IMG/VR virus record: IMGVR_UViG_3300032251_000007
Coordinates: 1 to 27,944 of that record
Length of the DNA: 27,944 nt
Origin: a virus
Strand: one strand, 5' to 3'
In this document: piece by piece, positions 13,263-22,635 of the stretch
Layout: each line of letters opens with the position of its first letter
Position numbering within the stretch: the stretch's first letter is position 1
Program-made: the position numbers and the translations under genes
The notes under the pieces: model-generated
Databases searched by the model: none
Told to the model about the DNA's origin: nothing
Seen by the model: only the letters and a program-made list of their open reading frames with translations

Positions 13263-14177
13263 CTACCGCAGAAGTCCCAAGAGCGGGCGCTTTTTACGTT
13301 TTTTCTTGCCCTTTCTCCGGGCAAGTTTTTCCTCGTGCTCCAGCTCTTCTTGGCTCTTCCGCGACACCTCAGACCTCGTGGGCCATTCACGGTTGACAAT
13401 CGACATGGCAGCGTCGGCGGCATGGGTGCGATAGAAGTAGGGGTCCTCCCTCTTCAGCACCTTCTTTATCGCTCGGCGTTCACTGTCCTCCCAGATTACC
13501 TCGACCATGTCCCTGATGAGATGGGTGCAGTTCGATTCGTGAATCTTAACTCGTGGGTTACCAAAATCGTCCTGGAGCCTCCTATTGAAGGCCCGGACGG
13601 AGTTTACATTGGATGGATTGCGAGACGGGACCTTCATCCGCACACGAAACGGCGCGCGCATGAAGCGGAGTTTAATCTCGTCGTAGTTCGACCTCTGGTC
13701 CTTCGATGAGCGGGCCTTGCCGGTTGCATCACCATAGACCCGAAGATCTCCGTAGTAGTCACCGAGTAGGTCGAGAACCTCGTCACATGCCTCGATCACT
13801 GACCCCGGGGAGAGGCGGATTTCGTTGACAATGTGAAGCATCTCACCGGGCAGGATCTGGGCGATCACCCAGACCATCGGATCGACGTTGAAATCGCAGC
13901 AGAGACAGACCGGGTACTGGTAATCCAGCTCCAGGTCCTGGGATGTGTTGGTGACGAGGGAGAACGACTCGAAACACCGAGCGCCGGACACGGAGCTGAA
14001 GTTGATCTCCATCTCCTGCTCCCAGTCCTCGACGGTCCCGCGCTCCCGCATGGCGACCGCCCACTCCTCGTCCTTGTCCGGGTCCGCGCTGTAATGCACG
14101 AACGCCATAGCCCAGCCGCCCTTCCCACGGACGACTGGGACATGCTCGAAGTCGGCGTAATTTGTGGCCTTATCCAA
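13263..14177 (-). CDS. Large terminase, nuclease domain (separate gene)
   Basis: 304 aa, with a TTG start immediately after the stop codon of the 34-aa gene (TAGTTG). The protein begins where the nuclease half of a large terminase normally begins: AFVHYSADPDKDEEW, WEQEMEINF, then the RNase H-like core. Likely metal ligands are D95 in CCDFNVDP, D150 in VYGDATG and D255 in THAADAAMS. The C-terminus is strongly basic (KGKKKRKKRP). It cuts concatemeric DNA during packaging. The ATPase half is a different gene about 2 kb upstream, with four other genes between. The weak ribosome binding site suggests coupling to the upstream small gene. Confidence 0.85.
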   Translation of the reverse strand: MDKATNYADFEHVPVVRGKGGWAMAFVHYSADPDKDEEWAVAMRERGTVEDWEQEMEINFSSVSGARCFESFSLVTNTSQDLELDYQYPVCLCCDFNVDPMVWVIAQILPGEMLHIVNEIRLSPGSVIEACDEVLDLLGDYYGDLRVYGDATGKARSSKDQRSNYDEIKLRFMRAPFRVRMKVPSRNPSNVNSVRAFNRRLQDDFGNPRVKIHESNCTHLIRDMVEVIWEDSERRAIKKVLKREDPYFYRTHAADAAMSIVNREWPTRSEVSRKSQEELEHEEKLARRKGKKKRKKRPLLGLLR

Positions 14178-15253: not shown

Positions 15254-15648
15254 CAGACGGCAGTGCCAACAAAGTCGGCGGTCTTGTGGTCCCTGGTCGA
15301 GATTACAATGTTCGCCTCGCTCAGGGGCGCGAAGGTCCAGCTGGCATGCGTTGGTGTGACGGTGTACTCGCCCTTCGCAACCAGGAACGCAAAGCGTCCA
15401 TTCGCGTCTGTTGTGGTGACTGCTGCGGCATCGCCAGATAGCGTGACTGTGACGCCAGCTATGGGGTCGGGCGTGCCATCAACAACATAGCCGAAGATTC
15501 TACGCTTTTTGTTCTTCGCAGCCGCACGCGTCTTCCGCCTCTTCTTCATCTTTTGCGTGCGCGCCCTCTTGCCGCCATCGCTGTAAAATTCTTCTTTGGT
15601 CGGTAGGGCCCCGACCTTGGCTACCCTTTCGAGTTTTGGCTTCGGCAT
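15253..15648 (-). CDS. Ig-like (carboxypeptidase regulatory-like) domain protein
   Basis: 131 aa from the ATG at 15648, chosen because GGAGG lies upstream and the preceding gene stops just before (TGACATG). An earlier ATG at 15684 lies inside that gene. The N-terminal half is very basic (RARTQKMKKRRKTRAAAKNKKRR). The C-terminal 80 residues are a clear beta-sandwich: IFGYVVDGTPDPIAGVTVTL, TTTDANGRFAFLVAKG, EYTVTPTH. This VTVTLSG...TTDANGRF...GEYTVTPT pattern is typical of CarboxypepD_reg-like/SdrD-B-like Ig folds found on phage surfaces. It may bind DNA or polyanions through the N-terminus and display the Ig fold outside. Confidence 0.7.
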   Translation of the reverse strand: MPKPKLERVAKVGALPTKEEFYSDGGKRARTQKMKKRRKTRAAAKNKKRRIFGYVVDGTPDPIAGVTVTLSGDAAAVTTTDANGRFAFLVAKGEYTVTPTHASWTFAPLSEANIVISTRDHKTADFVGTAV

Positions 15649-15649
15649 G

Positions 15650-16162
15650 TCATTTGCCTCCGCCCATGGCTCCGCCCCGGCCACCGCCCTGCATTCCCTG
15701 GAGCATCTGCTGGAGGGCGTTCATCTGCATCTGCTGCTGCTGGTTCTGGCCGCCCTGCTGGCCCGCTATGCTGCTAAAGTTGCCAAGCGCGCGCCCGGCA
15801 GGCTGAGCGCCGATGCCGCCAAGCTGCGGGGGCGTAGACGCGCCAGTGTTGCTCGGGCCTGGAGGGGGAAGGGGCCGCATCTGGCCTCCCATGCTCGGGC
15901 CCTGGGCCGGTCCCGCGCCCGGCGCTGGCATTGGTTTCGGTTGTGCGAGGCCTTGGTATGCGCTCGGCATCCCGCCCGCCGCTGGTTTCGGTCCACCCAT
16001 CTGTCCGCCTGCTCCGCCTGCCTGTCCTGCTCCACCGCCCATGGTAGTTCTCCTTGCGTTTGGAAATCCTGCGTTATTGATATTCTGCATAGGGTCTGCG
16101 ACGTTCGGATTGGCGCGTTGCGCCAAATGCCCGTAGTTGCCGCCTCCTGATCCACCCATCAT
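15650..16162 (-). CDS. Gly/Gln/Met/Pro-rich low-complexity protein
   Basis: 170 aa, ATG start overlapping the terminase ATPase stop by 4 bp. Nearly the whole chain is low complexity. Gly-rich ends surround a Pro/Gly/Ala middle and a Gln/Met-rich segment (QNQQQQMQMNALQQMLQGMQ) that could be a short helix. There is no hydrophobic core, membrane helix or known motif. It may be a disordered linker or a minor virion component. Although its composition is unusual, tight coupling on both sides supports a real gene. Confidence 0.65.
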   Translation of the reverse strand: MMGGSGGGNYGHLAQRANPNVADPMQNINNAGFPNARRTTMGGGAGQAGGAGGQMGGPKPAAGGMPSAYQGLAQPKPMPAPGAGPAQGPSMGGQMRPLPPPGPSNTGASTPPQLGGIGAQPAGRALGNFSSIAGQQGGQNQQQQMQMNALQQMLQGMQGGGRGGAMGGGK

Positions 16163-16875
16163 GCCACCAGCCTTTTCACGTCTTTCCAGCTTTTGATCCC
16201 CATGGCGTCTGCCAGCTCAGCCATAATGCCGATTGGCCCGCCGCTGGACGATGCGAGAATCAGTTGAGCTCCATTTTCGACCATCGGCAGCGCGGCTCGA
16301 ACGGTCTCTGATGCCTCATCTTGGAATTCACTCTCGTCCAAGAAGATCCTGGTCGCCGTGTACTGTCTCAGAACATCACCCCCGCTGGCAAGTGCCCAGA
16401 TATAGGAATCATTCTCATAGGTGATGTGTCCGATCAGACCGGTCTTGGTCTTCGAGGTGCTCGGGGTCCTCCGAAACGCTGGATCTTTCAGATTCGTCTC
16501 GATGAAGTAGCAGCGTTTGTCGACAGCAAACGCCGCCTTCTGCTCCGTCTCTGACATATAGAAAAGCGCGCCGTTCGGATGATACCGGGCGTCCCAGACG
16601 AAAAACGCTGAGAGGAGCCACGACACCATCATCCGGCGCGACTTCGGGATAGCCACCAGGGGCTCGTTTCGGAGCACCTGGATCACTTCTTTGAGATATT
16701 CGTGATGTTTCGGCCACGGATACCGGCGATCCTGGTTGGCCTCTGTGATCTCCGCCGACTCGTCCTTTGTGATGACCTGCTGGCAGAAGAATTTCCAGGG
16801 ATCTTGGGCGTATTGGATGTCCAGCTCTTCCTTGAAAGCAAGGAGAGCCGCAGCCTCCTCCCTGGGGGTTAGCAT
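16159..16875 (-). CDS. Large terminase, ATPase domain (separate gene)
   Basis: 238 aa, ATG start sharing 1 bp with the small terminase stop. The segment WPKHHEYLKEVIQVLRN precedes a Walker A-like site, IPKSRRMMVSW (residues ~76-86), of the deviant phage-terminase type. Walker B is RIFLDESEF (D180, E181) and the coupling motif is LILASSSGG (~206-213). The chain stops ~25 residues later, at the linker that normally leads to the nuclease domain, which is instead encoded at 13263-14177. It powers DNA translocation into the head. The usual full-length protein would be about 500-550 aa; the two halves together make 542. Confidence 0.88.
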   Translation of the reverse strand: MLTPREEAAALLAFKEELDIQYAQDPWKFFCQQVITKDESAEITEANQDRRYPWPKHHEYLKEVIQVLRNEPLVAIPKSRRMMVSWLLSAFFVWDARYHPNGALFYMSETEQKAAFAVDKRCYFIETNLKDPAFRRTPSTSKTKTGLIGHITYENDSYIWALASGGDVLRQYTATRIFLDESEFQDEASETVRAALPMVENGAQLILASSSGGPIGIMAELADAMGIKSWKDVKRLVA

Positions 16876-22158: not shown

Positions 22159-22187
22159 TTGACATGTGAAGAATTGTGCTGTACCTT
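22159..22187 (+). promoter_or_regulatory. Rightward promoter for the RNA array and rsr
   Basis: TTGACA (22159-22164), 17 bases, TACCTT (22182-22187). The -35 is perfect; the -10 keeps the key first, second and last bases. The predicted start is near 22194, about 20 bases before the first RNA module. It would transcribe the five modules and, by readthrough, the Rsr gene. Confidence 0.65.
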
Positions 22188-22214
22188 GGTTGTGTTCGAA
22201 AGGAGGCAATAAGA

Positions 22215-22350
22215 GTTCCGAGCGGCGACAGAAAGGGTTACTTCCACTTATAATGGGGATGTCCCAAGTTCGAATCTTGGTCGTGACCTTCGGGCGCGGT
22301 AGCTCAGCTGGTAGAGCACCTAATGTTCCCTTTCGCCCCTTCCCTCGGAC
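22215..22350 (+). ncRNA. yrlA: Y-RNA-like module 1 with permuted tRNA-like domain (YrlA-like)
   Basis: The lower stem TCCGAG (22217-22222) pairs with CTCGGA (22344-22349), followed by a C-C mismatch and a GG step. The upper part folds as a tRNA in permuted order. The T stem is CCAAG/CTTGG (22264-22268, 22276-22280) with loop TTCGAAT. The acceptor-like stem is 22281-22288 with 22292-22299, sealed by a 3-nt loop and containing one G-A mismatch. The D stem is GCTC/GAGC (22302-22305, 22314-22317) with GG in its loop. GGGA (22256-22259) pairs with TCCC (22327-22330) where the anticodon stem would be. Known bacterial YrlA RNAs have this tRNA-mimic fold on a Ro-binding stem. Confidence 0.85.
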
Positions 22351-22357
22351 ATAATTT

Positions 22358-22463
22358 TCCTGTGGCGCTGGACTGGGTTCCTTCGGTTAACAAGCCTTCG
22401 GGCTTTGTGGTTCGAATCCACGACACTCGCAAGAGTGCAACACCCATCCGCTCATCCCCAGGA
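22358..22463 (+). ncRNA. Y-RNA-like module 2 with reduced tRNA-like domain
   Basis: The lower stem TCCTG (22358-22362) pairs with CAGGA (22459-22463), then a T-C mismatch and GG/CC. The conserved CGCTG and GGGTT follow, and GGGT (22375-22378) can pair with ACCC (22442-22445). The apical part has three hairpins: AAGCC-TTCG-GGCTT (22392-22405); a T arm, TGTGG/CCACG with loop TTCGAAT (22406-22422); and CACTC-GCAA-GAGTG (22424-22437), which looks like an acceptor stem sealed by a GNRA tetraloop. No D arm is visible. It seems to be a YrlA relative that has lost part of the mimic. Confidence 0.75.
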
Positions 22464-22475
22464 TTTCAAACAGGT

Positions 22476-22545
22476 TTCGGTGTGGCGCTGTGCGGGTTAC
22501 TTCACCTTCAAAATGAAACAGCCCCGTATACCCATCCCCACCGAA
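22476..22545 (+). ncRNA. Y-RNA-like module 3, no tRNA-like domain
   Basis: The lower stem TTCGGTG (22476-22482) pairs perfectly with CACCGAA (22539-22545), then T-C mismatch, GG/CC, CGCTG, GGGTTACTTC. GGGT (22494-22497) pairs with ACCC (22530-22533). The apical loop is short and A/C-rich with a possible TTCA/TGAA hairpin. It is the shortest well-paired member and defines the core shared by all modules. Confidence 0.7.
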
Positions 22546-22562
22546 TTTGAAAATTTGAGCTT

Positions 22563-22624
22563 CGACGCGGCGCTGCGTGGGTTACTTCTTTAGGTGAAAA
22601 CACCCGCACAAATCCTTCCCGTCG
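22563..22624 (+). ncRNA. Y-RNA-like module 4, no tRNA-like domain
   Basis: The lower stem CGACG (22563-22567) pairs with CGTCG (22620-22624), followed by C-C mismatch, G-C and G-T pairs, CGCTG and GGGTTACTTC. GGGT (22579-22582) can pair with ACCC (22602-22605); alternatively GGTG-AAAA-CACC (22593-22604) forms an apical hairpin. The two are mutually exclusive, which could permit switching. Confidence 0.65.
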
Positions 22625-22635
22625 TTTTCGAGGTT

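Follow-up and report, generated by a model that had tools for sequence, protein, structure and literature searches.

A YrlA-type Y RNA with a permuted tRNA head and a predicted anticodon arm upstream of the Ro60 gene of an SU10-like phage

Background

In 2014, YrlA RNAs near Ro genes were reportedly known from over 250 species of bacteria and phages. They are described in reviews as bearing D, T and acceptor arms, as tethering Rsr to PNPase and as being modified by DusA and TruB (PMC8394870), and one proposal gives them a competitive role towards an anticodon nuclease (PMC7790460). The YrlA crystal structure (6CU1) superposes on tRNA via a circular permutation (PMC11472068). Permuted tRNA mimicry and phage Ro proteins are already known, and the mimic is known in phages too. 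The closest annotated phage Ro is the Ro60 of the Thermus phage phiLo (9l5y), with 34-37% identity to the protein discussed here and the same fold; a search of the phiLo Ro neighbourhood with model R1 found no YrlA-type RNA. The Rsr-Y RNA-PNPase complex (RYPER) of D. radiodurans shares the Ro fold and the Y RNA stem with the present locus, for which the link to PNPase is one of analogy. As in module 1, treated below, the 3' half stands ahead of the 5' half in the permuted tRNA genes known from algae and archaea.

The window analysed here is a stretch of 27,944 nucleotides (IMG/VR record IMGVR_UViG_3300032251_000007), the source of which is an SU10-like phage with portal and capsid genes. Five RNA modules precede a Ro gene in the window, and the first of these (module 1, 22215-22350) is likely to be a Y RNA of the YrlA type that carries a permuted tRNA head and acts together with the phage Ro60. 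The Salmonella YrlA (RF02553; PDB 6CU1) resembles module 1: both adjoin Ro/Rsr and have a stem of the Ro-binding type, a T arm in permuted position, a sealed acceptor and a D arm. The Rfam YrlA model, however, has a continuous 4-bp stem and no anticodon arm, whereas module 1 carries a 12-nt insertion at this place and scores below the gathering score. A complete anticodon arm is missing from the Rfam model and from the reviews consulted, and its novelty is uncertain.

Methods

A first scan for the T arm-acceptor-D arm order retrieved mostly tandem ordinary tRNAs, from which the true Y RNAs were separated with ARAGORN. A stricter pattern that included the UACUUC linker matched 110 viral and at least 120 bacterial stretches, in which 228 distinct RNAs were read. 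The covariance model was trained on 40 relatives with the window left out. A related-locus search seeded with a single Ro protein gave no match. tRNA positions are given in the conventional numbering, and all the RNA modules and the Ro gene lie on the plus strand.

Results and Discussion

The Ro gene and the five-module array

The open reading frame at 22736-24217, with AAAGGAGG at 22723-22730, encodes a Ro60/TROVE protein of 493 amino acids, which matches PF05731 (E 2.3e-19) and phrog_850 (E 2.6e-36). Its predicted structure confirms the TROVE fold, matching the TROVE-domain crystal structure 9kop with Z 32.7, the phiLo Ro60 9l5y with Z 29.6, vertebrate Ro60 with Z 23-25 and the D. radiodurans Rsr with Z 23.4. 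The ORFs tested to the right of Ro gave no match to a known family. Elsewhere in the window, the large terminase is seemingly split on the minus strand into an N-terminal part (phrog_5989) and a C-terminal part (phrog_10250), lying 2 kb apart (13263-14177, 16159-16875). ORFs are situated between the two parts, and one of these ORFs has a CarboxypepD_reg/Ig-like domain (15256-15684); an Rfam search found no intron.

Common to the five modules are an internal loop of the GGCG type, a stem, a linker of the UUACUUC type and similar 3' parts. Modules 3 (22476-22546; fold z -2.6), 4 (22561-22624) and 5 (22634-22715; fold z -3.4) are plain Ro-type Y RNA stem-loops as judged by their fold, the repeats and the consensus. 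Module 2 (22362-22462) has a Ro-type stem with a UUCG hairpin, a T arm (UGUGG-UUCGAAU-CCACG) and a GCAA hairpin and is without a D arm; it matches the covariance model of the relatives weakly over 22376-22445 (13.2 bits, E 0.075) and is perhaps a reduced tRNA mimic. A candidate promoter for the array and Ro, TTGACA-17-TACCTT at 22159-22187, was read from the sequence; it is weak and falls under the threshold of the consensus scan.

The Ro gene begins about 0.4 kb downstream of module 1, as expected of the neighbour of a Y RNA. Among the loci with enough flanking sequence, 45 of the 52 viral and 48 of the 61 bacterial ones have Ro on the strand of the YrlA and no more than 2.5 kb away from it. 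Extra UUACUUC motifs are frequent close to the YrlA of the relatives, so that arrays are the usual case. Three YrlA-type RNAs, one with the full anticodon arm, are found upstream of a single Ro gene in the Xanthomonas phage Olaya (L009 2348, 2575, 2824), while the Brevundimonas phage Domovoi, which has Ro and YrlA-type RNAs as well, carries a permuted tmRNA (RF04321, 60.2 bits; L004 6784-7039).

Ro follows the array immediately, its ribosome-binding site set off by a short gap and nothing resembling a terminator lying in between; the array might thus act chiefly as a cis-acting leader, with Ro binding its own mRNA and regulating its own synthesis or the stability of the mRNA. Such a role as the chief one is improbable, because the YrlA of relatives occurs both upstream (100 cases, median about 211 nt) and downstream (58 cases) of Ro and at varying distances, and autoregulation needs no elaborate tRNA head. 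A leader function is nevertheless compatible with module 1 being a YrlA-type partner of the phage Ro60, the two not being exclusive.

Module 1 as a Y RNA

The covariance model matches module 1 over 22236-22321 with 81.2 bits (E 4.9e-20), well beyond what chance would give. With the Rfam YrlA model RF02553, module 1 scores 34.5 bits (E 1.1e-5) across 22222-22342, which is below the gathering score of 69, and the Rfam search of the window at the gathering score therefore yields no match to module 1; this score is missed by other phage YrlAs as well. The ends of module 1 pair to form a stem with an internal loop, as in Y RNAs. The outer Ro-type stem, with UCCGAG at 22217-22222 as the 5' strand and its partner at 22344-22349, is found in the minimum-energy fold of 22215-22350, and the inner stem pairs AAAGGG at 22232-22237 with CCCUUU at 22328-22333 (pairing probability 0.84-0.88). 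The 5' side of the internal loop between them, GGCGACAG at 22224-22231, is the counterpart of GGCGCUG in modules 2-5 and would contact Ro. The inner stem is followed by the linker UUACUU (22238-22243); with the next residue, C29, this forms the UUACUUC that most relatives share with modules 1 and 3-5. Module 1 is almost certainly a bacterial Y RNA of the YrlA type, as its sequence indicates, and its stem is quite probably bound by the phage Ro. The initial annotation of this DNA had proposed a permuted tRNA mimic of the YrlA type, and homology, covariation and gene neighbourhood support that proposal together with a partnership with the adjacent Ro.

The tRNA-like head

The tRNA-like domains of module 1 follow one another in the order that characterises YrlA. 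The T arm (positions 49-65; CCAAG-UUCGAAU-CUUGG) lies at 22264-22280, the sealed acceptor at 22281-22299, and U8, A9 and the D arm at 22300-22317, with the D arm itself (GCUC-AGCUGGUA-GAGC, including G18 and G19) at 22302-22317; the T and D arms are supported by the Rfam alignment, covariation and the covariance model. These are the coordinates and the permuted order given in the initial annotation for the three arms, and the T-D elbow residues that it had noted (T-loop UUCGAAU, D-loop with G18 G19) are intact as judged by homology and covariation. Its view of the acceptor has to be revised: the three-base loop it proposed has a pairing probability of 0.05 versus 0.74 for a UUCG cap (22289-22292) with A22286 bulged, so that closure by C(UUCG)G at 22288-22293 is more likely. 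Modification of module 1 by elbow-reading enzymes is plausible by analogy, since YrlA reportedly undergoes modification by DusA and TruB (PMC8394870).

The arm list of the initial annotation comprised the T, acceptor and D arms and overlooked an anticodon arm at 22244-22256, with which module 1 amounts to a whole tRNA opened at 28/29. The arm consists of C29C30A31-CUUAUAA-U39G40G41, with a stem of 22244-22246 and 22254-22256 and a 7-nt loop (positions 32-38, 'anticodon' UAU) at 22247-22253. It is continued by G42 and G43 (22257-22258), the partners of C28 and C27 (22320, 22319), and by the variable loop AUGUC (44-48; 22259-22263), while A26, C27 and C28 occupy 22318-22320 after the D arm. An anticodon-position stem had been placed previously at 22256-22259/22327-22330; this candidate was rejected, its pairing probability being 0.00, because it rivals the well-supported inner Ro-type stem for the bases of the latter, and the real conserved pairs are those of 22257-22258 with 22319-22320. 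The UU of the linker (22242-22243) can replace 27-28 as the partner of 42-43 in most viral relatives, and a switch between a Y-like and a tRNA-like state is possible.

On joining residues 1-28, which follow the cap, to residues 29-72, which precede it, and adding ACCA, module 1 gives a cloverleaf of 76 nt, with arms of standard length, which ARAGORN calls as tRNA-Ile(UAU). The conserved tRNA bases U8, A14, G15, G18, G19, A21, A26, U33, C48, G53, U54, U55, C56, G57, A58 and C61 are all present in it. When the relatives were de-permuted likewise, 85 of the 88 were called as compared with 19-26 of 88 when the halves were swapped between RNAs. In the native order, neither the window nor 22200-22360 by itself yields an ARAGORN call, and no linear cloverleaf of an ordinary tRNA gene is present. 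The body of module 1, as read from its letters, is a complete tRNA that is circularly permuted, opened at 28/29 and sealed at the acceptor.

As all the tRNA positions are present and de-permute to tRNA-Ile(UAU), module 1 might be regarded as a permuted tRNA gene processed to a working tRNA, as in some algae and archaea. This is highly improbable. Unlike the algal and archaeal genes, which yield mature tRNAs, module 1 is sealed: positions 72 and 1 are split by a C and UUCG only (five bases), leaving no space for a discriminator and CCA. Moreover, the short caps vary among the relatives, the conserved element is the Ro stem rather than processing signals, and the anticodons of the relatives include AUU, which is rare in bacteria. 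A tRNA-Arg(tct) deposited for the Gordonia phage VanLee (L007 2653-2724) overlaps a YrlA (L007 2672-2757, E 6.5e-19); the call is probably spurious, built from the YrlA anticodon and T arms, and ARAGORN produces calls of this type in two further loci (L067, L103).

The matches to the simple T-acceptor-D pattern, being mostly adjacent ordinary tRNAs, might also suggest that module 1 is the functionless debris of two tandem tRNA genes. The linkage to Ro, the Ro stem and the hairpin-type acceptor speak against this, and covariation across both halves contradicts it, making the idea practically untenable. Phage tRNA genes that adjoin one another (L014-L133) reproduce the order of T arm, acceptor and D arm, and a tandem tRNA pair could accordingly be the origin of YrlA.

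Covariation of the anticodon arm

The presence of a complete anticodon arm in module 1, proposed from the sequences of its relatives, is very probable. In the alignment to the Rfam YrlA model, the 12-nt insertion cacuuauaaugg of module 1 corresponds to this arm. Percentages for the 90 non-redundant relatives, which do not count as independent events, are descriptive. Watson-Crick pairing is seen among them at 27-43 and 28-42 in 97-98%, all four pair types being represented, at 30-40 in 97% and at 31-39 in 92%; position 29 is fixed by the search pattern itself. Both 27-43 and 28-42 are paired in 88 of the 90, as compared with 27.5 on permutation. Counts for the named structure in 64 RNAs show 98.2% pairing and a covariation score of 0.674 versus 0.162 on shuffling, values which collapse when the structure is slid; repetition on 40 RNAs gave the same result.

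As selection by the UACUUC motif might have skewed the sample, the test was extended to the 23 Y RNAs that the first scan had yielded, a set chosen regardless of this region. The 27-43/28-42 pairs occur in all 23 of them, and the full arm with a 5-bp stem and a 7-nt loop in 10 (0.22 expected). Between UACUUC and GUUCGA, 23 nt is the most frequent spacing (102 of the 228 RNAs) and exactly that needed for an anticodon arm, a variable loop and a T stem.

About half of the relatives of module 1 carry the arm. It is wholly missing, with a gap of 9 nt, from a group of Bacteroidota YrlAs (L254, L259, L262, L299, L305, L308 and others), and the existence of arm-bearing and armless (gap-9) classes implies that the arm is not essential to the family. 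Energy-only folding of module 1 gives probabilities of 0.08 for the anticodon arm and 0.00 for the 27-28/42-43 pairs, the tRNA fold, when imposed, costing about 6 kcal/mol. Most relatives behave likewise (mean 0.27 for the arm and 0.05 for the pairs), so the energy model is uninformative here, though it gives no support.

Conservation of the anticodon loop

U33 is present in 88% of the relatives, and U36-A37-A38 in 76% (71-74% with similar sequences pooled) as compared with 32% of 1416 ordinary tRNAs of the same loci, while positions 34 and 35 are near random. On the Ro tree, positions 34 and 35 undergo 22 and 24 changes, respectively, whereas 36-38 stay. The anticodon changes 41 times on the tree of 61 Ro proteins versus 44.7 for shuffled labels; with a turnover almost as high as on shuffling, mere shared ancestry is unlikely to account for the retention of 36-38. 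U36-A37-A38 is the known t6A37 signature of ANN-decoding tRNAs. A loop with 36-38 kept and 34-35 varied fits a t6A-type loop, a modification that would follow from the sequence, and argues against decoding; the loop is probably kept tRNA-like (U33, U36, A37, A38) as a site of modification or recognition. The YrlA anticodon is identical to that of the nearest ordinary tRNA in 23 of the 90 relatives (7 expected), which lends some support to repeated copying from ordinary tRNAs as an alternative.

The same agreement in anticodons would be compatible with module 1 serving as a decoy, a chargeless permuted tRNA that absorbs host anticodon nucleases or other anticodon-loop enzymes and thereby shields the real tRNAs. 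The anticodon arm is complete and covarying, its loop is tRNA-like, and a survey of jumbo phages groups TROVE proteins with RNA-repair functions (PMC7824862). However, a loop in which 34-35 are free and 36-38 kept is ill-suited to a nuclease whose target is fixed, the arm occurs equally often in the bacterial copies, and the nuclease studied in Salmonella left YrlA uncut (PMC7790460). A decoy function is therefore unlikely.

Proposed working of module 1

In the reading of module 1 as a Ro-bound Y RNA, the RNA would be made and would act together with the phage's own Ro60 ring protein, which would grip the two-part stem at its internal loop. With the acceptor ends joined via the UUCG loop and the opening at 28/29, a tRNA-like fold would be attained without charging or translation. 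The head may then be offered to a host partner that handles tRNA or other RNA, tethering Ro to this partner and gating it during infection. Tethering of Ro to an effector by the head is quite conceivable, if somewhat short of probable, and is modelled on the D. radiodurans system, in which PNPase is the precedent. The anticodon arm would add a surface that is missing from armless YrlAs, and the conserved U33 and U36-A37-A38 make the anticodon-loop enzymes the first candidate partners.

A broader and rather doubtful extension is that many phage and bacterial YrlAs are complete uncharged permuted tRNAs, the anticodon arm of which is selected as a U33/U36-A37-A38 loop. Such RNAs might be substrates or competitors of anticodon-loop enzymes such as the t6A synthase and anticodon nucleases and, in phages, might serve counter-defence or the control of translation via Ro.

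Conclusions

Should the anticodon arm prove real and modified, mimicry by many Y RNAs of bacteria and phages would extend beyond the elbow to the whole tRNA. This would suggest anticodon-loop enzymes and nucleases as new partners and would account for the false tRNAs placed by tRNA finders at such loci. The phage Ro systems would thereby acquire a testable role in conflicts over tRNA.
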